From Muricea muricata (Eukaryota > Cnidaria > Anthozoa > Malacalcyonacea > Plexauridae), in NCBI GenBank assembly GCA_963855995.1, contig OY979717.1, forward strand, positions 64,350,243-64,414,242: a stretch of 64,000 nt of DNA, in the 5' to 3' direction. Shown here piece after piece: positions 2,864 through 64,000 of the stretch (positions are counted from its first letter, which is position 1; the number at the start of each line of letters is the position of its first letter). The translations under genes and the position numbers were made by a program. The notes under the pieces are model-generated. The model made no database searches, was not told the origin of the DNA, and worked only from the letters and a program-made list of their open reading frames with translations.

Positions 2864-5830
2864 TTATTGGTTGAGAGTCCTACCACCATCCACACGTATA
2901 ATCTGCCCAGTGATGTACTTTGCACTCAATACCAGGTACTCTACTGCAGACATAATATCACTAAGATCACCTATTTCATTCAATGGAATCTTCGATATGA
3001 GATCCTCCATCAAGTGATTGCTGAATCATGTGTCTGAGGCATGAGTATAGCACCAGGTGAGATTCCATTCACTCGAATATAAGGCGCAAATTCTTTAGCT
3101 AGAGACATCGTACACATGTAAAGACCAGCTTTCGATATACAGTAAACAGAATGATCAGCTAAAGGACGATCTGCATGAATATCTACCATGTTTATAATAC
3201 AACCATTTGATCTTTTCAAACTTGAGAATGCAGCCTAGAAATGCAGCATTTTTAAATCAGTCTAGTTTAGTTTAGTCTAGTTTAGGATTTTTCCAACAGG
3301 CTATTACCCAGTAATTGGAGACCGAGGTATCTAATCAAGTCTTACCACTTGCAGATGTCAATGTAGAAATGCATGAAGTCTGCCTCTTAAATTTAGGGTG
3401 GCCGGGCGAGCGAAAAAGTAGGAAGCCAAAATATATAATTAGATTCATTACGTTGAAAGGAAACAAGTCTGCCTCTCTGCTTCCTATTTTTTCGCACGCC
3501 CTCTCGGCCACCCCAAATTCAAGAGGCAGACTTCGTGCAAGTCTAATGTCAATGTAAAGTTAGCTAAATTATTTTCGGACCTTTAATTGGGTCTGAAAGC
3601 TTGAAGCTTGGCCTCTCACTGCTTCCAGCTTCGACGACAAGAGTGGTGGCCACAACACCACACACGCTGAAAGACACGCTTGTTCATATTCTACCCCTTA
3701 CACTTAGAACATATTACATGATCTCATGGGGGCACTCTAAAAGTGATTACCTTTAATGATACAACCTGTTTAAGAATGGTAATTTCATAAAAAATTTCCT
3801 CCTACCTGTGACAAGAAGAATGGTGCGGACATGTTTGTTTGAATAAAATTGTTCCAGATATCTTCAGAAACCTTTCCAATTTCTGTTGGATAAAACTGAG
3901 AAGCATTGTTGACCACGACATCTAACCTTCCCCACAATTCCAAACATTCATTGACGATTCTTTCTGCCGTCTCCTTTGTATTTACAGTTAGATCTCCTTG
4001 GACAACTCTGGCAGAATCCGCACGAACACTGTGCCATGTTGAAATAAATATTAAGAGAAAGTACTTTCATTTGATTCCACATTTCTTTTATTCAGATAGA
4101 ATCAACAGATTTGCTCAAATAGTAAAGAAATTAATAATCGAAAAGCGTTAATTGAATATGAAGGAAATGTCAGTTTCAGTAAATTCCAGCGGAAAAATGC
4201 AACTGAGGCCGGTTTTATACGTCGAATTTAATTCAGATGAATTTAGTTCGTTATTAAATCCGTGAACTGGTCGAGCTTTGTCGATTTCGTTTCGAACGAC
4301 GGATTTAATTTGGACGAATTAAATTCGGTGCATTCAACTCGGACGAATTAAACTGTGGGCTTAAAAATGTTATGCATTAAACTCGTCACGACTTTTCATA
4401 CGGTGTTGTATCCGTCACGGTTGGACGAATTTTTAAATTCGTTTCATACGACGCACTACTGTCGCATTCTATTCGTTCAATTAAATTCGTCTGAATAGAA
4501 TTCTGCGATAGCGTGGCGTATGAAAAAGGCCAAACAATTCAATTAACGTAACACAATTATCGTACCTGTTTAGTTTTCGCGACAACAAGATGGCTTCATC
4601 CTGAGATGTGTTGTAATGGATCATAACATTATAACCCAAATTGTGAAGTTTTGTTGTGATACAAGCGCCGAGACGTTTGGCCGCACCAGTGACTAAAGCA
4701 ACATGGTGGTCACATTTTGAAGGTATTAATCCATTTTCCACTTTCATGATGTCAACTGTTCCATTTGTTGACTCAGATAAGTGACCACTTGCAATAGGTA
4801 ATGGCAATTTGTTGTCGTTTGCGTTAAGTATATCAACTACAGGAAAATACGACATAAAATTTTCGCCACAAAGCTCTAGTGCTACCGTGCGCAAAGATTT
4901 CTTCTTCACTGGATGGATAAATTCTGGTGTAAGATCAGCAAGAGGTATGATCACGTGTGGTCGTTTGAGCACATCAGGATCTGGAATAACGCAAAGGGTA
5001 TCTTCGCTTTCTGACTTCACCTTGAATTGCATTATTTTCTCTTCCCACAATGCAATGTCAACATCCATCGTTCTGGGAGCACTTTTATTTCCTGGAACTC
5101 GAGTTCGTCCCAGTTGCAATTCAATCTCACGAAGAATCTTTTTTAAGCTTTAATAAAAATTATGATAAAACTTGTAGAATAAAAAATAATGATAAAACTT
5201 GCACAACAAAAATTTGTAAAATAAATAAGGAAAGAATGTATGCTTTAACTATTTTAATCAATATAATACTCACGTAACTGGATCATGTTTAGTTTTCACA
5301 ACAACGGCCATATTGATGAACTTATCTTGCTGTTCGTATCCAACTGGGGGTGTTTGGAAAGCTCTTGATATTTTGACCAAATCAAACTTTTCTTTTAATA
5401 ATGCAATAACCTTGATCATATTTTCTATAGGAAAGATGTTAGAACCAAGAACAAGATGTACATTTTCCCATTTGTAATCTTTTGAACATCTTTCAACGAT
5501 CACTGCAGAATAGTCTGAGAATCTTAAAGCGTTTGGCTTCGCTACCTTAACTTTCACCCATGGAGCGCCATGTTTTTCTACACAAACACCAGCGATATCT
5601 TCTGCTATTGTTTCAATAAGATTGTATTGTCTATTTTCAACACGAGTAATAATATCTTTGGTTAAAGTTCTATTGTTAATGCTGTCCTCGACGTTGTCAG
5701 ACTTCCCGGCTATTCTTGAAATCTGGAATTGAATGGTAACAACAATTTCTTGAAGTTTTCCAACCTCATGCCTACTCAAACCAACCTCCGTACGCAATCG
5801 TAGTCCACTGATTTCCAATAAATCCGTCAT
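2864..5830 (-). CDS. Trifunctional pterin enzyme: FolB/FolX + HPPK (FolK) + PTR1/FolM-type reductase
   Basis: There are four coding exons on the minus strand: 5830-5274, 5147-4566, 4028-3806 and 3234-2864, with GT-AG junctions and matching phases, about 577 residues in all. Residues 1-115 are a dihydroneopterin aldolase/epimerase fold (LIETIAE and AKPNAL carry the family Glu and Lys). The 'RTLTKDIITRVEN' segment looks more like FolX than classic FolB. Residues about 120-285 are HPPK: LGSN start, PPVGYEQQDKFINM, PRTMDVDIALW with the two metal-binding Asp, then HVIIPLADLTPEFIHP. The rest is a short-chain reductase: nucleotide-binding ALVTGAAKRLG, NNAS, NMVD, the YxxxK pair (YCISK), and a C-terminal YITGQ..VDGG. 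TGAAKRLG and NMVD resemble pteridine reductase 1 and FolM. The reading frame breaks once near 3014-3018 (AIT, stop, then LMEDLISKIPL in another frame), so this copy may be damaged or the base call wrong. Eight bases before the ATG is a strong splice acceptor (ttttttcttctttag), so at least one upstream exon is missing from this call. Dihydropterin synthase (FolP) is absent. Confidence 0.85.
3375..3534. mobile_element. Palindromic MITE in last intron of the pterin gene
   Basis: Arms of about 50 bp begin 'gaagtctgcctcttaaattt' (3375-3394) and end with the near-complement (3515-3534). The middle is AT-rich. It lies wholly inside the intron between exons 3 and 4. Confidence 0.7.
4207..4531. mobile_element. 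GGCC-ended MITE in intron 2 of the pterin gene
   Basis: The ends are 'ggccggttttatacg' and 'cgtatgaaaaaggcc'. The body repeats forms of aattcgtcngaattaaattcg in both orientations. It fills most of the 4029-4565 intron. Confidence 0.65.
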
Positions 5831-6065: not shown

Positions 6066-6264
6066 GTATGCAGGGTTGAAGTAATGAAAATTAGGCATTT
6101 TGCGATGCCATGTTTGCCCATTGTCTGAGACTGGGGCGAGAGGTACTGTGACGTAAAAACCGGAACGGAAGTAAACACAACAAGAAAGCGCATTATCTTT
6201 CATTATGTAAATTATAGGGCACACACAGCAGTTTCGAATTACTCTCACATTTTGTTCGACAAAG

Positions 6265-9200
6265 ATGCCTGAAAGATGTGTTGTGACAGGCTGCAGCAAC
6301 ACGAGAAATTTAGACGAAGGTATTTCGCTTCACACAATACCTTTTTATGGTGACGAACGGCCAGAAGCGAAGAAAAGGAGGAAAAAGTGGGTTAGTTTTG
6401 TGAAACAAAAACGTGCAAAATGGGAACCAACACGACACTCGGTAATATGTTCGAAGCATTTTAAAGATACCGACTTTTCGGAAAGATTCAGCGAAGTCGA
6501 GGGGGTAAGAATGCAAGGAAAAAGATGGTTAAACTCTGATGAACTTGGAGTTTCAGTATTTCCCAGTGTTTACATTGAAGTTACAGGAAATCCCCTGACC
6601 GGCAGAGCCAAACGACAGGTAAACTATGAAATATATATTTGTGAGGTAGTTCTTTTGCCTATTTTGGGTGCGTCAGAGTAAACTTATTGTATTTTTAGTT
6701 GATTAGAAGCGCGAAAAGCGGAGACGTGTTAGCTACAGGATCGCTGGAAACTGTTGCAAATCAAGCTACTACACGCACTGACGCTATTATACTACCTGAA
6801 GAGAAGGGTGAATGCTCTGGTGTTATATTGCCCCAACCGGATTCGCCAACAAAATGTGTCGAATGTTCGTCGCTGTCTGCAAAGAATCACGAACTGAACA
6901 ACACAATAAAGAAATTACAACGGTTACTGCAAGTGCGAGACAACAAGTTAAGAAAGTACAAAAGAAAAGGTAGGAATTCCCAATTCAAATTATTACAAAT
7001 ACTGTTAAAGTATTTTGTTTGCAATTATGATGTATTAAATCGGTATATAAGCGCCAGTTATCTGAAAATTTATATTGTGCGCCTTATAGCTCTAAAGCTG
7101 GAAAACGCATTAAAACAAGTTGGCCATATACCACAGAAAAGAGTGCGGGTGAAGTCATTTGGTGCTTCAGACAAAATGATTGAAGATTGCGAGGAAAGTG
7201 ACTTTGAGATGGGAGGGGAATTTGATGTTGAAGAATTGGATGTTGAAGAAGAATTGGATGTTGAGCGAAGCCAAGCATCAACTTCTAGCTCACAGTATAC
7301 AACAGGGTCAACAGAATCAACAGAAGAAGATCACAGCTCTGATGATAATGACAGTCGGTAAATACAAATAATGTTTTATCCCTTTTAGTGGCAATGTGGT
7401 CAGTGCACACGTATATTTACTAGATGTATGCATTAGTCTATATTTCAAATCCTCTTATTTTGTTTGTGTGCCAGTACCATATGCATGTTGTTAATCAGAA
7501 CCCTCAAAAAATTCAAGATTCGGCCGGAATTGAGTTGCGGTGCACCCCTAAATTTTCCTCGGTATGACCAATCATGGACGTAAGAATGATAAATCATTGG
7601 TATGATCAATGGTTCTGGTATGTCATATCTGCAGTCCTTGTAATTGCTAATAATTTTTAAAAATTTGCCTTGAATTCACATAGGTTAGTTCTTGCTGGGA
7701 AAACTCTGAGAACAGAACCGAAGAATGTTGTCTTCCTTTCACAGTTAATGCATCTGTTTAAATTTTGTCATACTTGTAAAGCAGACAATCCAGAAGTACA
7801 GAAATATGAGATTGGCAGCATGGTTGTTATTAAAACTATTTGTCATGCCTGCAAGCAAGAAATGAAATGGCAAAGTCAACCATTTTTGCCAGGAGGGAGT
7901 ACCCCAGCTGGGAACCTCTTAATTGGCTTTTCTATACTGATGACTGGTGGTTCGCCTTCACGGGTCATAAGAATGTTCGAGCACATTGGTATTGGCTGCA
8001 TATCTCTTCGTACTTACTTTGAGTACCAGAGGGTGAGTAAGTTTAATGGGATATATTTTTTCATGAGGCAAATATATTGACTTAGTTGCATGTGATCTAT
8101 TCATTATATCCTAGGTAGCCCACTAATTGATGGTATATTTTTGGTTCAAAAAATGTGTATTTATTCTTGTGTTACTCTGTCTACAACTTTATTCATGCGC
8201 ACGGTCCAGTTCAATGAGCGGTCAGCTTGTGATCCAAAAACAACCATCAATTGAACCAAAAACATACCATCAATTAGTGGGCCCCTAGGATTATATGGCA
8301 TTGAATACTGTTGCCTATTTTTATGTTAAAATACAATTTATTCAAATTTCCTTTTGTAGAACAAATTGTTCCCATCCATTTACATATACTGGGAGAGATA
8401 TAAGAACCAACTAGTTGCAAAGGTGAAAGCCGACGAAGATCCTGTGGTACTTGCCGGGGATGGACGGCATGATAGTATGGGCCACAGTGCCAAATACTCT
8501 GCTTATACAGTCTTCTCTTGCTCCCTTCCTGGAGTTATCCATTTTGAGCTAGTCCAGGTTTGCAAGCATATTATAATCCCAGTATTGTACCATGAGTATC
8601 TAATATGTAGCAGACTCAGCCCTTATTAGTCACAATCTTTCCCTCACATTTCTTGATTATATTTTAATATATTTAGAGAAACCAAGCAGGAAGCAGTCCA
8701 GCTATGGAATTCATGGCTTTCAAATTGTGTATGGACTATTTGTTTGGGAATGATATAAATATGGGAACGTTTATATCTGACAGACACAAGACCATTGCCA
8801 TGTTACATGAAGAAGAATCTAAAAAAAGTCATTCACTACTATGATCTCTGGCATTTAAAGAAAAGTAAGTGACTAAAAATGAAAGTGTACTTTATATTCT
8901 GTTTATAAAGCGGAAGTTTACCTTTGATTAACACTTATAGAAATCCACAAGGTCCTTTCAAAGATTGCAAAAGAGAAAGGATGTGAAGATCTTGTAGACT
9001 GGGTAAAACCATGTGAAACTCATCTTTATTGGAGTGCGACATCCACATATAGTGGTGATGGTGATATCATCTGGGCTAAATTCAGAAGCTTTTTGGGCCA
9101 TGTTGTCAACAAACACAAAAATTTGGATGACCCTTTGTTTGATAAATGTGCTCATAGAGAAATTGAACCCAGAAGATGGTTAAAATCCGGTGAGTCTAAA

Positions 9201-14674: not shown

Positions 14675-14885
14675 GTAGGTAGGTAGGTAGGTAGGTAGGT
14701 AGGTAGGTAGGTAGGTAGGTAGGTAGGTAGGTAGGTAGGTAGGTAGGTAGGTAGGTAGGTAGGTAGGTAGGTAGGTAGGTAGGTAGGTAGGTAGGTAGGT
14801 AGGTAGGTAGGTAGGTAGGTAGGTAGGTAGGTAGGTAGGTAGGTAGGTAGGTAGGTAGGTAGGTAGGTAGGTAGGTAGGTAGGTA
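14675..14885. repeat. Long (GTAG)n microsatellite at a LINE 3' end
   Basis: About 52 near-perfect tandem copies of a tetranucleotide (tagg/gtag) abut the 3' end of the minus-strand LINE. On that strand the tail is (CTAC)n, so the array probably grew from the element's short simple tail. The 106-codon YLPT open frame through it is an artefact. Confidence 0.97.
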
Positions 14886-18649: not shown

Positions 18650-18895
18650 ATTCCACGTTTTATACCCATTCGGTTCCGTTCTGCGTTTTATCCCCATTCT
18701 GTTCCGCGTTTTATCCCCATTCCGTTCCGCGTTTTATCCCCATTCCGTTCCGCGTTTTATCCCCATTCCGATCCGCGTTTTATCCCCATTCCGTTCCGCG
18801 TTTTATCCCCATTCCGATCCGCGTTTTATCCCCATTCCGTTCCGCCTTTCCGTTCCGTTCCGCCATTCCGTCATTCCGGTTCCGCGTTTTATCCC
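18650..18895. repeat. 23-bp minisatellite
   Basis: About nine to ten units of gttccgcgttttatccccat plus tcc, with C/A and T/A variants (ttccgttccg or ttccgatccg). The last units are shortened. Because 23 is not a multiple of three the overlapping frame cycles through three peptides and is not a gene. Confidence 0.95.
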
Positions 18896-40182: not shown

Positions 40183-41454
40183 TTAGTCATAACCATAACG
40201 GTTGGGAGGTCGTATATTTTGCCTAAGTCTGGCAGGCCTTGCTCTGGGGTTTCCCACCTGCTGAGGTGCAACGTCAACTACCTGAAACTCACCTATTTCT
40301 TGAGATGGGCAAACAAGTTCACCCGATTGAAAAGGGACATAACTTAAATTAAGTTGATCATGATGAACAACTTTTCCCTCACCACCCTGAGATACTATTT
40401 TGTAATTAACCCCCATCCGTTTTTGAATGCGGTAAGGCCCAACACATTTACTGCCTAATTTCCAGCCTTTAGGTTGCCTTAGCATTACCGTTTGACCTTC
40501 ACAAAATGGCCGCCAAGTGTTTGTCGTTTGTTTGTGCCCTGCACGTTTTTCGGATACTTTGGTAAGCTGCTGCTTTGCGATTTGTCTAACGTCACGGAAT
40601 ACTGACCTAAGTGTGTGTATATATTCGTTGCGAGTGGATGGATTTGAAAGTGGCCTGCCTAACTCCAATTCTAAAGGCAATCTCGGAGCACGCCCAAAAA
40701 CTACTTCATAAGAAGAGACCCCAAGTACATCATGCTTACTCGTGTTGTATGCAAATGTGACACTATCTAGCCATAAATCTCAATCATCTCTTCGACTTGA
40801 AGCAAAAGATGACAACATGTTCTGAAGTGTTCTGTTTTGTCGTTCTGTTTGACCGTCACACTGAGGATGATAAGCTGTTGTTCTGGTCTTGGTTATTCCC
40901 ACTGAATCGCATATCTCATGCATTAAAACGCTTTCAAAATTACGACCTTGATCGGAGTGTAAAACTGCAGGGGGACCAAATCTAGAAAATATTCTACTTA
41001 TCAAAAGTGGGGCTACTGTGCTTGCTTTTTGGTCAGGGGTAGCAAACGCCACACACCATTTAGTGAAGTGATCGACAACGACAAGTATATGCTTATTGCC
41101 TTGAGTAGTTTCTGGCAATGGTCCCATGTAATCCATTGCCCAAAATGTAAAGGGCTCCCCTACAGCTATATTACCCATTGGAGCTCGATTTAAATTAACT
41201 GGTGAGGTGCGATGTGCACAAACCGTACATTTCTTAACGTAAATTTCGACATCTGTTCTGATACCCGGCCAATAAAAACGCTTTCTCAACCTCTCCTCGG
41301 TGCGGGATATTCCTAAATGACCGGCAAACGGATTATCATGGACTGCTTTCAAAATTGTTTCTTGCAGAGCGGTGGGGACGACAATGACATAATTTGGATA
41401 ACTGAATTTAGTTTGCGATAATCGACACAAAACCGGAGTTCGCCGCTCTTTTTT
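40183..41454 (-). pseudogene. Gypsy integrase region, one stop codon
   Basis: The minus strand carries the zinc-binding segment (HLGISRTEERLRKRFYWPGI, then CTVCAHR), the catalytic core with the three acidic residues (WAMDYMGP, HSDQGRNFES, then CDGQTERQNR), and the C-terminal part with QTVMLRQPKGWKLGSKCVGP, which resembles the GPY/F module. A stop at 40779-40781 separates the core from the C-terminal frame. Upstream, the sequence joins directly to the beginning of the RT domain (GELRFCVDYRKLN in a shifted frame), so most of RT and all of RNase H are missing. Confidence 0.88.
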
Positions 41455-42744
41455 TTAACTAACGGGACTAGACCAGGCACTTGTACTAGAACGAATGACA
41501 CCTTGTTTTAGCATGTCGTTGATTTGGCGTTGTGCTTCATCCCTATGTGCATACGGTAAGGGCCTTGGCGCTTGTTTGATTGGGGGGGAAGTACCTGTGT
41601 TGATCTTATGTGTAGTTAGTGTTGTGCGGCTAAGTATTTCGTCGAATACATCTGAATATTTATATAACAACTGTTGTACACGTTTCCTGTCATCGGGTGT
41701 AAGAGAAGTGTCAATTACTGCATCAACCTTATCCATGAATGTTTTAGACAAATCGCTTTGCACGGCCCCGCAAACATCCGCGTCCGGCAAGTGTGACGTT
41801 GTAGAGCATGACTCAACCAAAGGACAAAAATCAGCTATGTTTTCACCGGCTACCAATTCGATTGGGTTTTGGGACATGTTAATAACACGTAAAGGCATTA
41901 CTCGGTGTTGGTCTGGTTTGACCACAACACGTGCTAAACTAAACCCCTGTCTGGCATCAATAGTGGTACCAGAACGTGGCTCTATCATACCGATTTTGCT
42001 GTTAGCACTTTTAGCTAACATCCCCTCCAAAATCATTTCAGTTCTAGGTGGTATTATTGCACTCTCGAGCAAAGCAACAACCGCATTGCTTTGAAACGTG
42101 GACTGACACAACAAACGATCAGTCGAAGAACGAGGCACCCGACTGTGAGTGACCCCAGCAAGGTCTGCCGTCATAGACTCTTTATCCCGTACAGAGGCTT
42201 TCCCATGGCGCCCAACTAAAATATAATCTTTCCCGGGGCCCTTAGTAATGGATAACTTATGGCGATTAATAAAATCCCATCCTAAGACACACTCGTATTG
42301 AATGTTGTCACTAACTAGAAAATCACTAGCATATGTAACTTTAGAATTACTAAATTTAACTACAGTGTTGAGTTGCCCAAGTATGTTCAAATTGGCTCCC
42401 GTAATGGAGACACATTGCTGAGCGCTAGTTTTATCTACCAAACTGTCATTAAAGTCAAGGATAGCTTGGACATTGTGACTGATGAACGATTTCATGGATC
42501 CAGTGTCCAGTAAAGCACGTACAAGAACACCATCGAGAAAGCAATCAACAAACGGGTGGACAATATCAATATTACATAAATCAGTGGTACTTACAATGGG
42601 ATGGTCGCTACTTCCACCAGAGTTTGGACCATCCCTTAGGAGTTTAAAGGAAACGGACAAGCACGAGCAAAGTGTCCCTGTTGACCACATGATGAGCAAG
42701 TTGGAGGGCGCGGAGCTCCATTGGTTTGACGGCGTTGGTAGCAA
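41455..42744 (-). CDS. Gypsy aspartic protease and start of reverse transcriptase
   Basis: The minus-strand frame includes the retropepsin motif LLDTGSMKSFIS near 42515-42480 and a following ECVLGWDFINRH. The C-terminal end (KYSDVFDEIL, then HKINTGTSPPIKQAPRPLPY, then SSTSAWSSPVS) is the entry into the RT domain. It overlaps the end of gag by about 110 bases in another frame, consistent with a gag-pol frameshift. The frame is broken by the deletion just after. Confidence 0.88.
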   Translation of the reverse strand: MLPTPSNQWSSAPSNLLIMWSTGTLCSCLSVSFKLLRDGPNSGGSSDHPIVSTTDLCNIDIVHPFVDCFLDGVLVRALLDTGSMKSFISHNVQAILDFNDSLVDKTSAQQCVSITGANLNILGQLNTVVKFSNSKVTYASDFLVSDNIQYECVLGWDFINRHKLSITKGPGKDYILVGRHGKASVRDKESMTADLAGVTHSRVPRSSTDRLLCQSTFQSNAVVALLESAIIPPRTEMILEGMLAKSANSKIGMIEPRSGTTIDARQGFSLARVVVKPDQHRVMPLRVINMSQNPIELVAGENIADFCPLVESCSTTSHLPDADVCGAVQSDLSKTFMDKVDAVIDTSLTPDDRKRVQQLLYKYSDVFDEILSRTTLTTHKINTGTSPPIKQAPRPLPYAHRDEAQRQINDMLKQGVIRSSTSAWSSPVS

Positions 42745-43493
42745 TTACGAGCAAAATGGCCAATTTTGCCACAGTTGTAACAAGCGTTTGAATTCGTTTG
42801 GCGCCCACGACGACGAGAGGTCGGCTGCGATGACTCGGCGTTGATTAACCTGTCTTCCAAAGTTTTCTGTTTTTCAGCAATCCCAGATACCATGGAGATT
42901 AATTCCGACAATTTTGCGTTGTCTGGAGCAGGTGTGAAGCTAGAACTAGCAACGGAGAAGTCGTTGCCAGGAGCGGGTGAAGCAAATCCCTCAACAGCAC
43001 GGTATCGTCGTACAAAAGCAAGCATTTCCTCCAGGATAGGAGTTGGATTGTGTTCCAGCAGCTTCAATTTGAGGAGATTTGGCAGTCCTTTCATGAACTG
43101 ACGTTGAATCAGTGTCGTCTTCCCACCATCTGCCAGTTCGGGGTCGGCCTTAGCGAGAAGATTCTCAAGCTCCCATTTATATACCGCAGGATCCTCTCCG
43201 GGACGAAGAACACGACTTTCAAACAATGCATGGAAAGTTTCGCGTTGAACAGCCGGGCAAAGGGACTTTCGAAGCTCCGCGACAGCATCGACGAACTGGG
43301 TACGCTTTTCTGCGGGAATAGCGTAAAAATGGCTTGCAGCTTTACCGCGAAGAAATGCGGGCAGTTTTAAAATTTTGTCATCGCGTTCCTCGGTAACTTT
43401 CCAACCATTGGCGTCACAGCAAGCGTTGAATTCACGCAACCAGCATTCAAAATCACCATTATCAAATCGCCCAGGCAAGATACTTGAAGACAT
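42636..43493 (-). CDS. Gypsy Gag with two CCHC zinc knuckles
   Basis: An intact 285-codon frame starts 33 bases inside the 5' LTR. The N-terminal part has the retrotransposon capsid pattern (FECWLREFNACCDANGW, AASHFYAIP, RRYRAVEG). The C-terminal part has two nucleic-acid-binding knuckles, CYNCGKIGHFARNC and CSSCGQQGHFARAC. It forms the particle shell and packages RNA in active relatives. Confidence 0.93.
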   Translation of the reverse strand: MSSSILPGRFDNGDFECWLREFNACCDANGWKVTEERDDKILKLPAFLRGKAASHFYAIPAEKRTQFVDAVAELRKSLCPAVQRETFHALFESRVLRPGEDPAVYKWELENLLAKADPELADGGKTTLIQRQFMKGLPNLLKLKLLEHNPTPILEEMLAFVRRYRAVEGFASPAPGNDFSVASSSFTPAPDNAKLSELISMVSGIAEKQKTLEDRLINAESSQPTSRRRGRQTNSNACYNCGKIGHFARNCYQRRQTNGAPRPPTCSSCGQQGHFARACPFPLNS

Positions 43494-43525
43494 AATAACA
43501 CCAGTTTAACCGCTGCCACCAGATT

Positions 43526-58745: not shown

Positions 58746-61700
58746 TCATATGCTGGAGCACAGGCCTGAGCTAGATATATGGACCTTATTTTCCACAGAT
58801 ATTTGACTTGAAAGTCTGTTAGAACCTTCGCTTTTTCGCTTTTGGTCCTGCAAAAAAGGTGGAGGAAGCATGACGTCAAACTTTGTAAATGAAAACGAGA
58901 AGAAGTAACAGCCATGTTGATTGACAGCTGTCGGATAGCTGTCGTAATGTATAATAGTTTTCATACCTTGTCTAGATCTCAAACGATCCCGCTATAGAGT
59001 AATAGAAGAAAAAAAGCATTACGTTGTTATGCCAAGAAGTACCATTCATATAAATTCACATCAACATCCTTCACATGCATGACAATCACCTATTTTGCTC
59101 GTATATATTGAGCTTTCTCTACGAATCGAAATGCAATCTGGGAAATGCATGTCGGTTAAAAAATGGCCCAGTTTGGAAATAACTGTGTGACGCAAGCACC
59201 TCTGATGTCCAAATACTGCGGCGTCATGGCTATAAGGGAGGGGTTGATATTCATATATTTGTTCTGTCCCACCATTTTTTTTTTAAATCAAATTGATTTC
59301 AAAGGACATTCGTCGGACAGAACACTAATAAATAAATATTTACACCTCCTTAACTTAAATTGTTAATTATGCCCCCTGAAACTTTAGTCATTTGTACATT
59401 TGCTTCTAAGCGGCTTAAATACACAGTGGATGATGAATTCACAGTGTACCTGATCTAGTTCCTCTAACGCTTCGCTAATCGCCTGCTCCAACCCTATCCT
59501 TGTCTTCTTGCCTCTGAGAAAAATAAAAGTACATAAGAAATATGAACGCACAATCTTGTATTTCCTTATTGGTCAGAATTCCACCAGAAATTTGGAAATA
59601 AAGTAAATTATAATATTTCATAAGGAGTTTTGCACTTCAGATAGAAAAATATATTTCCATTTGATAACTACAGTTACTGCTCATAAGTTTGAATACAAGT
59701 GTGAAATGTAGTTTCATGTATTGGTAAAGTGATACCTAAAGCTTTTTTTTGGTTAGTCATTCTTTCATTGTTAAAAGTTCTGACTTGTATCTTCTCAGGT
59801 TTTTACACACTTGCAATTAATATGCAAGAAGATGCATATAACCTCAAAATCAGGGAAATGGATTGGCATAGTCGACTAAACACATCACCAGGTGTATTCA
59901 AACTTTTGAGCAGTAACTGTAGTGCCACTACTTTTCTGTGTTTTCACGATAAGTTGGTTGTTATATTTTTAAATATACAATATATCACGGCAGTAGAATT
60001 ACGTGCATACCTATGTTTCCTTTTTCTGCCTTTGTCGTCCAACGTCTTCAACCCATCAGTTAACGTTTTCAGTTTTTCGACTTCCACTTGACTGAAAGTG
60101 TGATCTCCAAACCACATAACCCATTTCTATATTAGCATTGATTAAAAAGAAAAGGACGCTTAATAGTGATAGTTTCAAGGCTCAATTCAAGATGGAATTT
60201 TGTTGGGGTCAAATGGCCTTGTTGAAATGTCTGATATATGTCACTATTACACATATCATTTTACAATATGGTTTTGCGAAGCCTTCAAATATCTCTTTAC
60301 CTTGCCAAAATCAGCTGCAGCTTTTCCATGTCCAACATCTCGTTCATCAACGATTTTACCAGGCCACGATGGTAGGCCTCTGGCTTGCGCCCACACAATA
60401 TCACCAATAGTGAACTCCACTTCTTTGGAACTTTCAGTATCTTCAAATGTTACAAATAATGTTAATTTTTCTCATATAATTTGTTTCTTAGTTTTTGGAT
60501 TACTAACCACCTAAACATTCCACCTGAATAACTAAATATGCACATGATCATACACGTACCATAAATGCTGGTTTAGACTGGTAAATTTTAATAACATAAA
60601 CCACAATCGTACACAAAAGTTTGGTGAACAAGGTCATAATGCCCAAAACCCTACCATATGCTCTTTTCCCTGTAAGAGCATAATCCGGGGCGGGGGGAAT
60701 GGATGGGGGGACATGTCCCCCACTTTTTGGGTTAGGAGGGACGAACATCTGATTATCCCACACTTTTCACGAACATTTGGTCTTTTTGATGTTAAAATCT
60801 TAATTATCTTATTAAAATTTATCCACATTCAAACTCTATCTATTCTAATATCTTTACATCAGATAAAGTTTAAACGATTCAGTGCATTTATTAGGGAAGC
60901 ATACCCCCGGACTTTCTTACTTTTGAACGGATTGTCGCACGTGCTGCCCCTGTTCAATGTTGTCTGGTGTACTGTTCTAACAGTGGAAAAAATATTTTAC
61001 CCCTCAATATTATGTTGGCCTAATGGGGAGCACCTCAAATAAGTATATGATAACAGTATAATAAGCAAACACGGGAAGATGCTTATCGGAATACATTACA
61101 TATACACTAAACAGGTCTGATGTCAGATAACTAACCTATCTATAAAAATGCTCTTCCTATCGTCTCTATTGCTGTCTTCCAATTTGTTGAACGAGTAGAC
61201 GGCATATGCGTGCTACATATCTGTACCTACATAGTATATTGAACCTACATTACTGTATCTATTTAGCCAACATATATGTGTTAATATATGTGTATCTAAA
61301 ATACTGTGAATGATTACAAAACACTAACCATTTGACATACTTCCAGTTTTATCTTTCTGAACTTCATTCTCAACAGACAAAACATTTTCTTCCTTAACCT
61401 TCTTAACATCTTGGTCGCAGTTCAGTTTATTGGAGCGTCTTTTCGATGTTCCCTCTGTTTTTGTCGGTACTTGGGCAAGATCTTCCAACGAGTTACTTTT
61501 ATTCTTTTTTTCCGAAGACTCGGTTTTTATTTTAGTATCTTCAATTGAGTCTGTTTTAGCACAACTGTCATTATTTAAGTCTGTTTTAATCACAAAACCG
61601 ATTTTCCTTTTTTGCTCAAGGAACAGATTGTCATCCTCGTTATCATTATTTACATTATCATCCCTACCAGAATGGTTTTCCTCACATTTTGAGTCTGTTA

Positions 61701-64000
61701 TATTACATTTATTTTGAACATCCTTCACATCATTTGTAACACTCTTACAATCGTCGCGAAGTTTCTCTGAATCCGCCGTAACATTTAAGCATTCATTATT
61801 AATGTTCTCGGTTTTTTCCTTTTCACATTTCAATATCGTTGAATAAGGTTCTGACGTGATCGTATCATCTTTAGATGCGCACATAGAGACCTCTTGTTTG
61901 TATTCATTATCGTTCAATGAATCGGCATTGAATGGAACGCCAGACATATCAAAGTTTTCTGGATCTGACTTCGAACAATTCTCGATGATATCCGATGAAT
62001 CTGTGGTTATGTCGCCAGTATTGATCGCATTTTCTTTACACACTTCCGCACTGGAATCCATGTTGACGACATCAGTCATACCAAATTTCGTCTCTCCATA
62101 ATTGTTTGGTGAAGTATCTGTTGGGGTACCACAGTCAGGAATTTTTTCTTCCAGAAAGTCACTTGATGTAACATCTTTCTCGCTACAATCACTTTTCTTG
62201 ACTGTAATGTCACTTTCTCCACGAAGTGTCTCACTACTATCGCAGACACTTGTCTCCGTTGAATTTTCTTTCATTGAAGCAACTGCTTCATCACTAAAGG
62301 AAGTAACTTCTTCTTTAGAATTATCCCTTTTCGAAGCAAGTGTTTCGCTGTCATCGCATGTAACTTTCTGTTTTGAATTGTCGTTAGCTGAATCAGTGCA
62401 AAGACTTTTCTCAAATGAAACATCATTACTGGAAGCGACTCTCCCGACACTTGAAGACAAAGGATTTCCAGGAGAGTTGTCCACTGTTGAAACCACTGTT
62501 CTTATGCTACTGCAATCCATTTTCTCTTCAATATTGTCATTCGATTCAGTGACAGTCTCGTTGTTTGTTAAACAATTTCTGTCAAACGAATTACTGTCCT
62601 TGTTTGAAAGAACTCTCTCCGCATTTGTGCACACAAGTTTCGCTGTTGGAATGTCGCTCGTTAAAGCACTTGTCTCGCTCATAGCGCTCTTACGCTTCTC
62701 TTCTAAAAATTTAGTTGATGAGCAGTCGCCCCCGGCGCAATCACCAAACGTATTAGAAGGAGATGGTTTGCTTGTAGCTGCAATACAATCCAACAGCTTC
62801 ATTTCGTCTTCTTGACCACCTGCAGTTACAGTGGCATTGTTCGTAACACTTGATGTAGCTATAGTACATGGCGCAGTGACAGTACTAGACGTAACTACAG
62901 TAGCAGTAGCAGCTGGAACTGATAATGAATTCTTCGAAGCAGTCTTTGATTTACTCTCTTGTGAAGTGGACATGGAAGATCTCGAACTTGTCGTTGTCAC
63001 TTTGGTTGGGGTGTGAGATGAAGTCTTCCCGCCGGATAACTTAGCAGTTTGAGCTGACGAACCAGAACGTTGATTTGTATACTGACCAATTTGCATAAAT
63101 TGGTACGCCAGCGCGTTTGCACTTGCGCCTTGAGTCAGCAAATGCTGCCAGTAAGGGTTATTGTAATTGCTAACCAGGTTCACCAATTGTTGCGAGAAGC
63201 TAGAACTGGTGACTGAAGCTGGAGCTATAGAAACAAATGCACTGTATGCTGCAGCAATCGCGGACGTGCTCACTGGAGCTGTGCTAGATGTTGGCGAGGA
63301 TTCCTTTGTGGTACTGGTTGAAGTTGTTACCGGCACAACTGGTTTGGATACATTACCTGGTTGCGCGATTCCTAGAAAGTATGGTATAACAGTGTTGGGT
63401 GCCATACCTAAGACAGCTGGATTCGCAACATTACTACCATAAGGCAAGCCTTGTAATGTGTAAAGATTACCATATGGATTTTGTTGTTCTTGAGTGCTGC
63501 TTGCACCAACACTTGGTCGGGCTCCTGTGCCAGTCAGTTGGACCTGAGGTACTACACCAGGTTGTAATAATATACCACAATATTGAAGTGGTTGACTTAA
63601 CGGGTCTGTTTGTTTCGTCGCTGTTTTCGCGTTACTGTTTTTATCGGCGTTGTGCATCTTAGTAATTGAATGACCCGGTAGTGTTGTTTCAGATCTTCCA
63701 ACAATTGATGGCTTTACATTTTGCTGGTTCTGTACAACCTGCGTCAGATCTTGTGGTTTCATTTGCACTTTACAAGTCCCAGACGATACAGTGTTGGTGG
63801 ACATCGTTGATTTGACATTTGCTAGTGGAGACGGATAAGGGTACACCATTCTTGGCAAACTTTCTTTACCTCTCACTGTAAAAAATCCTTTAGATGGCTC
63901 CAGAGGTGTTTTATCCGTTTTTTCTTGAGGAAGCCTGGAGAGCGTTATACCAGACGTTCCTGGCCAATTGACTTTTGAATTAAGATTAGGCATTGGATGT
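58746..64000 (-). CDS. MBD5/6-like PWWP-domain chromatin protein, 3' part
   Basis: Minus strand; five exons seen: (64000)-61329, 60440-60301, 60126-60011, 59513-59450 and probably 58847-58746. Phases agree at each junction. The first is a single exon of at least 2.6 kb encoding a Pro-, then Ser/Thr-, then Asp/Ser/Glu-rich region without folded domains, ending in a Lys-rich nuclear-signal-like stretch (GTSKRRSNKL). The next three form a PWWP domain: IGDIVWAQARGLPSWPGKIV, KWVMWFGDHTFSQVEVEKLK, then LEQAISEALEELDQ. This combination, a C-terminal PWWP with WFGDHTFSQVEVEKLK after a long disordered region, recalls MBD5/6. The N-terminal methyl-CpG-binding domain would lie beyond the window. The frame is open to 64000, so the ATG at 63993 is not necessarily the start. 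It would act in the nucleus on chromatin. The last exon (DQKRKSEGSNRL..stop) is less certain. Confidence 0.8.
59671..59919. mobile_element. Tc1/mariner-type MITE in an MBD5/6-like intron
   Basis: Inverted ends CAGTTACTGCTCATAAGTTT and its near-complement, flanked by TA on both sides. 249 bp, no coding capacity. Confidence 0.82.

Follow-up and report, generated by a model that had tools for sequence, protein, structure and literature searches.

We identified in the cnidarian Muricea muricata a spliced gene that joins a FolX/FolB-type domain, an HPPK domain and a PTR1-type pteridine reductase, in that order. The reading that we prefer, with a probability of roughly 0.55, is that the gene is native to the animal, occurs in one copy and encodes a pterin enzyme of three domains, that it is a longer form of a folB-folK fusion with a reductase derived from gammaproteobacteria, and that its output would be something other than folate. 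Animals are taught to be incapable of folate synthesis, and to our knowledge folate synthesis is the sole textbook use of HPPK. An HPPK that has been retained and fused to a bacterial-type pteridine reductase therefore suggests that there may be an animal pterin pathway of its own. The evidence base is the DNA sequence of one animal genome.

Structure of the fusion gene

The stretch of DNA analyzed, hereafter the window, is 64,000 nucleotides long and covers positions 64,350,243-64,414,242 of contig OY979717.1 (C2); the assembly has 453,007,491 bases in 74 contigs. The gene occupies window positions 2864-5830 on the minus strand and consists of four exons, with all three introns bounded by GT-AG (Table 1). 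The joined protein, in which an X was placed at a frameshift in exon 4, is about 577 residues long and matches three Pfam families above their curated cut-offs, namely FolB (E 5e-21), HPPK (E 1.4e-24) and adh_short_C2 (E 4.2e-39, aa 340-574). It also scores 326.8 bits against the NCBIfam pteridine reductase model PRK09135 (NF006598), for which the cut-off is 288. The Pfam and NCBIfam matches are far beyond chance.

Table 1. Features of the fusion gene in window positions; intron phases are computed from exon lengths
Feature	Position	Strand	Description
Exon 1	5274..5830	-	Begins with start codon 5830-5828; encodes the FolX/FolB domain and the beginning of HPPK; donor GTGAGT
Intron 1	5148..5273	-	126 bp, phase 2, GC 0.18
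Exon 2	4566..5147	-	Remaining HPPK, linker, start of reductase with TGAAKRLG
Intron 2	4029..4565	-	537 bp, phase 2
Exon 3	3806..4028	-	Middle part of reductase (NNASQF)
Intron 3	3235..3805	-	571 bp, phase 0
Exon 4	2864..3234	-	End of reductase (YCISK, VDGGR); homologous stop codon 2866-2864
Frameshift	3010..3030	-	One base, somewhere in this interval; frame-zero TGA 3012-3010
FolX/FolB domain	5498..5815	-	aa 6-111; Asn53 replaces Tyr
HPPK domain	4925..5455	-	aa 126-260; spans intron 1; retains the catalytic Arg and Asp
PTR1-type pteridine reductase domain	2867..4711	-	aa 332-577; spans introns 2 and 3 and the frameshift

The original prediction, that the three domains lie in one frame set across four GT-AG exons, holds for the domains, exons and introns, but not for the reading frame of exon 4. 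Frame zero of that exon runs through ...PGAILMPQTHDSAIT into the TGA, whereas the homologous C-terminus (SNHLMEDLISKIPLNEIGD...VDGGRTLNQ, stop) lies in another frame, down to 2864; it is there, after the shift, that the C-terminus expected of the reductase, SNHLMEDLISKIPLNEIGDLSDIMSAVEYLVLSAKYITGQIIRVDGGRTLNQ, is found. The gene as assembled does not have the uninterrupted frame of the PRK09135 enzymes, possibly through an assembly error, and its reductase is without about the last fifth. Given that the part beyond the shift is open and similar to bacterial reductases, the break is either young or an assembly error. Its origin may be an assembly error, a polymorphism or a recent inactivation.

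Contamination, an objection that the prediction itself had raised against the contig, is unlikely because the gene has introns and lies 64.35 Mb inside a long contig of the 453 Mb assembly. Its coding sequence (GC 0.389, GC3 0.32) is also close in GC to the whole window (0.373).

Several other features were seen in and around the gene. Intron 3 contains a 49-nt inverted repeat pair (3364-3412 and 3497-3545). A THAP-domain reading frame (6211-6678, plus strand, E 1.1e-13) starts about 430 bp from the start of the fusion gene, head to head with it, and more frames up to about 9215 may join the THAP gene; the one tested gave no useful match. Together with spliced genes and the 453 Mb size, the THAP frame speaks for an animal genome. 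Nested, near-perfect inverted repeats with arms of 27, 47 and 23 nt at 727-1198 resemble a short non-autonomous mobile element, and a stretch at 40183-43505 on the minus strand is LTR-retrotransposon-like, its tested part (41458-43505) having CCHC zinc knuckles that pass the cut-off and aspartyl protease matches that are weak and fall short of it. The window also holds a GTAG microsatellite that is pure over its 53 copies (14675-14885), a tandem repeat with a 23-bp unit in 7.7 copies (18674-18849) and, on the minus strand, a Ser/Thr-rich frame (61324-63999) that stays open for at least 891 aa, runs past the window edge and, at E 0.01, matches nothing in Pfam. Scanning the 64-kb window for Rfam families and tRNAs returned nothing.

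The FolX-type and HPPK domains

The first domain has as its best solved-structure match E. coli FolX (1b9l), with which it is 36% identical over 105 residues, and it carries the LRLRT, RT.TK and ALRF signatures of FolX. In a tree built without L053, L004 and L083, which were short or odd, FolX and FolB sequences separate with 98/94, and the animal domain goes with FolX, on a very long branch (3.18) that lies outside the five bacterial FolX-like rows. Among the loci fetched the closest FolX is L064, which is supported as a folX because its neighbor is 51% identical to E. coli YfcH, a protein whose gene adjoins folX in E. coli.

At position 53 (codon 5674-5672) the animal domain has Asn, whereas Tyr stands in every one of the 41 bacterial rows that carry a residue there (5 FolX-like and 36 FolB-like). 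In Mycobacterium tuberculosis FolB, Tyr54 is reported to be essential for aldolase and/or epimerase activity, and Glu22, Tyr54, Glu74 and Lys99/100 are named as conserved active-site residues (PMC11328599). The animal domain keeps Glu22, Glu73 and Lys98. For FolX, the active site is predicted to lie between subunits (PMC3405516).

The second domain matches best an HPPK structure (8sk1). At R82, R84, R92, D95 and D97, by what we take to be E. coli numbering, which also applies to W89, the animal protein has the common residue, present in 39, 35, 40, 40 and 40 of 41 bacterial rows, respectively. The loop position W89 is Ser in the animal, a residue found there in 0 of the 41. In the HPPK tree, from which L058 was omitted because it is cut, the animal domain groups loosely with L040 and L060 (93/39). 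The best identities to the bacterial loci fetched are 35% for the FolX part and 37% for HPPK.

Probable bacterial descent of the reductase

The third domain matches best the pteridine reductase structure 2x9g (E 1.3e-43), presumably T. brucei PTR1. It keeps the Arg of TGxxxRxG, the Ser and Phe of NNASxF, the Asp, and the Tyr and Lys of YxxxK, residues that are common to between 65 and 69 of 69 bacterial rows, with seven loci counted twice. PMC1971073 gives a TGX3RXG motif and reports that folM-like genes cluster with pterin genes in bacteria, and PMC13259868, which cites Pribat et al. 2010 for FolX and FolM, has FolM and PruA making tetrahydropterins.

Over the whole domain, identity to gammaproteobacterial enzymes reaches 53%. 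An initial contig scan gave three loci, of which only L001, from a Shewanellaceae MAG, was of use. Within the order of that genome, PRK09135 matches above the cut-off occur in 36 of 295 genomes and in none of 14 control genomes; weaker short-chain reductase matches occur in 289 of the 295 and 13 of the 14. Across the Shewanella phylum, the animal domain finds a match at 1e-30 or better in 131 of 398 genomes. Among the matches listed for these 398 genomes, the best 33 rows are 41-53% identical to the animal reductase, and below them the score falls from 184.9 to 150.4 bits and identity is at most 40%. Relatives were also sought in viral contigs and none was found, two stretches fitting a pattern only.

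Bacterial donors were sampled from this one phylum, except for L002 and L003, which form the outgroup of one reductase tree. In that tree the animal domain stands beside L018, L025, L075, L031, L030 and L029 (93/85). Adding FolM, FabG and T. brucei PTR1 lowers the support for the nearest fork around the animal reductase to 81/37; without T. brucei, the corresponding seven-row fork has 95/32 and the starred eight-row set that includes L021 has 96/89. FolM and FabG are very long branches in these trees, which were built without the partial L048 and, where FolM and FabG were included, also without L002 and L003. In AU tests, uniting all bacterial reductases to the exclusion of the animal, T. brucei, FolM and FabG sequences gave p 0.024, and placing the animal, FolM and FabG sequences outside the bacterial reductases was not rejected (p 0.082). 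T. brucei PTR1 is likewise placed within the gammaproteobacterial reductases, where its neighbors are L017 and L020 rather than the animal domain. This placement hints at a separate transfer, with a sister relation of the animal and T. brucei reductases not rejected (p 0.186).

Bacterial descent of the reductase is most likely, being well supported by identity and moderately by the trees, and its acquisition by horizontal transfer is likely.

Gene neighborhoods in bacteria

The original prediction held that the three domains were a horizontally acquired bacterial module, and for the reductase this agrees with the identity of up to 53% to gammaproteobacteria and with its place among them in trees. 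We looked at 60 reductase loci, which are 53 distinct places, seven having been fetched twice. A FolB or HPPK match lies in the fetched flanks of 14 of the 60, a lower bound given flanks of roughly 1.5 kb and the weakness of the animal domains as probes. The neighbor is convergent with the reductase gene in 13 of these 14, and only at L083 are the two on the same strand. At the six loci nearest to the animal reductase no FolB or HPPK match was found in flanks of about 1.5 kb. Around 29 HPPK anchors, which were chosen as the best FolB-HPPK matches and are thus biased upwards in their FolB share, FolB is present at 27 and the reductase at 7, all convergent.

At L040 (1444-2199) bacterial folX and folK lie in tandem, in the same frame and with a 3-nt gap, possibly the forerunner type of a FolX-HPPK fusion; the reductase of this bacterium sits elsewhere (L086). 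A bacterial neighborhood with the right three genes therefore exists, but the fused order and direction were not seen among the loci fetched, nor was there, in the loci examined, an operon in the fused order that could have been transferred directly. The module claim thus extends poorly to a joint transfer, the genes being mostly convergent and the FolX and HPPK parts no closer to bacteria than the identities given above. One shared source of all three domains is possible.

Pterin genes elsewhere in the genome

The 453 Mb genome was searched exon by exon with the best candidates alone scored, an absence meaning "not found" and not proof. No further FolB match and no further HPPK match was found in it apart from the fusion gene, which is apparently single-copy, as searched. 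FolP was not found by the exon-by-exon Pfam search of the same 453 Mb, as the original prediction had claimed from the gene itself. The only Pterin_bind matches, three in number (C4:18018811-18020016), are followed about 6 kb downstream, with no change of strand, by Met_synt_B12 matches (C4:18025963 to 18028040). We read this layout as methionine synthase, so the search gave no DHPS.

GTP cyclohydrolase I exons are present at C4:15292690-15299726. A PTPS match at C5:4460544-4460936 extends, within a single open frame, over 119 of 121 positions, and the PTPS gene may therefore be intronless there. There are 11 matches to exons of Biopterin_H, the pterin-dependent hydroxylase, on C6, apparently from two genes. 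A candidate sepiapterin reductase is represented by three exon-sized matches (C11:12412032-12414038), with 0 of 29 matches in this search reaching the whole-protein cut-off.

Proposed function and alternatives

We propose that the reductase domain came by horizontal transfer from a gammaproteobacterial pteridine reductase of the PRK09135 type, and that the FolX-like and HPPK parts, bacterial in type, may perhaps have come from the same kind of source. GTP cyclohydrolase I would supply 7,8-dihydropterins, which the FolX-like domain would bind and hand on, its own epimerase/aldolase chemistry probably weakened or altered by the replacement of the catalytic Tyr with Asn. HPPK would pyrophosphorylate 6-hydroxymethyl-7,8-dihydropterin, and the reductase would use NADPH to take dihydropterins to the tetrahydro level. 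These activities, the channelling and the product are predictions. The reductase partner points to reduced pterins and, since no FolP was found, the output would be a reduced or phosphorylated pterin and not folate. Most likely, then, the fusion protein handles dihydropterins outside folate synthesis, and the earlier suggestion of pterin salvage or an unusual reduced pterin is, judged from sequence, a fair guess. A more specific version, in which the FolX part has changed its chemistry with the loss of Tyr and the protein makes a pterin undescribed in animals, such as 6-hydroxymethyl tetrahydropterin or its diphosphate, is unlikely.

The frameshift raises the alternative that a transferred fusion, once functional, is decaying and is a young pseudogene in this genome. 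With the frame broken as assembled the reductase may indeed be dead here, and both the early TGA and Asn53, set against Tyr in every bacterial row with a residue there, are what such decay might leave. Nevertheless, the rest of the approximately 577 codons is open, the splice sites are exact and the catalytic residues are intact in two of the domains; beyond the shift the frame stays open as far as the homologous stop, and a single-base assembly error would account for the shift. We therefore regard decay as rather unlikely.

E. coli FolX and FolM make tetrahydromonapterin, and in a comparable route the animal FolX domain would epimerize dihydroneopterin triphosphate and the reductase would make tetrahydromonapterin as a hydroxylase cofactor. 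This analogy, drawn in the original prediction, gains from the FolX signatures, the position on the FolX side of the tree and the pterin-dependent hydroxylase matches in the genome, but it meets an otherwise invariant Tyr, reported as essential in M. tuberculosis FolB (PMC11328599), that is Asn here. Mainly for this reason simple tetrahydromonapterin synthesis is disfavored, and the usual tetrahydrobiopterin route is also matched (GCH1, PTPS and the candidate sepiapterin reductase exons below cut-off), leaving the route quite doubtful. It is more improbable still that the gene serves real folate synthesis or recycling, with the HPPK product going to an unrecognized DHPS or a folP-bearing symbiont. 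The HPPK residues are intact and DHPS is the normal user of the HPPK product, but the sole Pterin_bind matches are placed as in methionine synthase, and in amphioxus no folP was reported either (PMC4224340).

Comparison with known systems

Our preferred reading, an animal gene for a three-domain pterin enzyme with non-folate output, can be set beside several known systems. E. coli FolX, the dihydroneopterin triphosphate 2'-epimerase, shares the signatures LRLRT, RT.TK and ALR[YF] with the animal domain but has the catalytic Tyr in place of Asn. The gammaproteobacterial PRK09135 reductases have the same catalytic residues as the animal reductase, yet in the loci fetched they are separate genes, whereas the animal version is fused and spliced. 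Trypanosomatid PTR1 shows clear sequence similarity and again the same catalytic residues, but groups with other gammaproteobacterial enzymes than the animal domain does. Fungal FOL1 is FolB-FolK-FolP and has the FolB-HPPK order in one gene, as here, but its third domain is DHPS, whereas Pfam gives a reductase and no DHPS in the animal gene; a FOL1-type fusion is thereby ruled out, in keeping with the original prediction.

The closest counterpart is the metazoan folB-folK fusion published in 2014 (PMC4224340). That paper describes it in Branchiostoma floridae, where animal genes share its 180 kb contig, reports a transcribed B. belcheri orthologue, infers a prokaryote-to-animal transfer and found no folP; the amphioxus folK was found with Planctomyces, and the ancestry of a putative Nematostella folB-folK was called questionable. 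A FolB-FolK fusion in animals without folP was thus already known. The main text of PMC4224340 contains neither "PTR1" nor "short-chain", and "reductase" appears in it three times, for DHFR. No report of the three-domain form was found among the titles and beginnings of abstracts listed, a search with subscription journals mostly outside its scope. The M. muricata gene is most likely a three-domain form of this published two-enzyme fusion: both have a FolB-type domain followed by HPPK in one animal gene, with no folP and a prokaryotic source attributed, but here a PTR1-type third domain is added, and the 2014 puzzle of a folB-folK kept without folP becomes testable.
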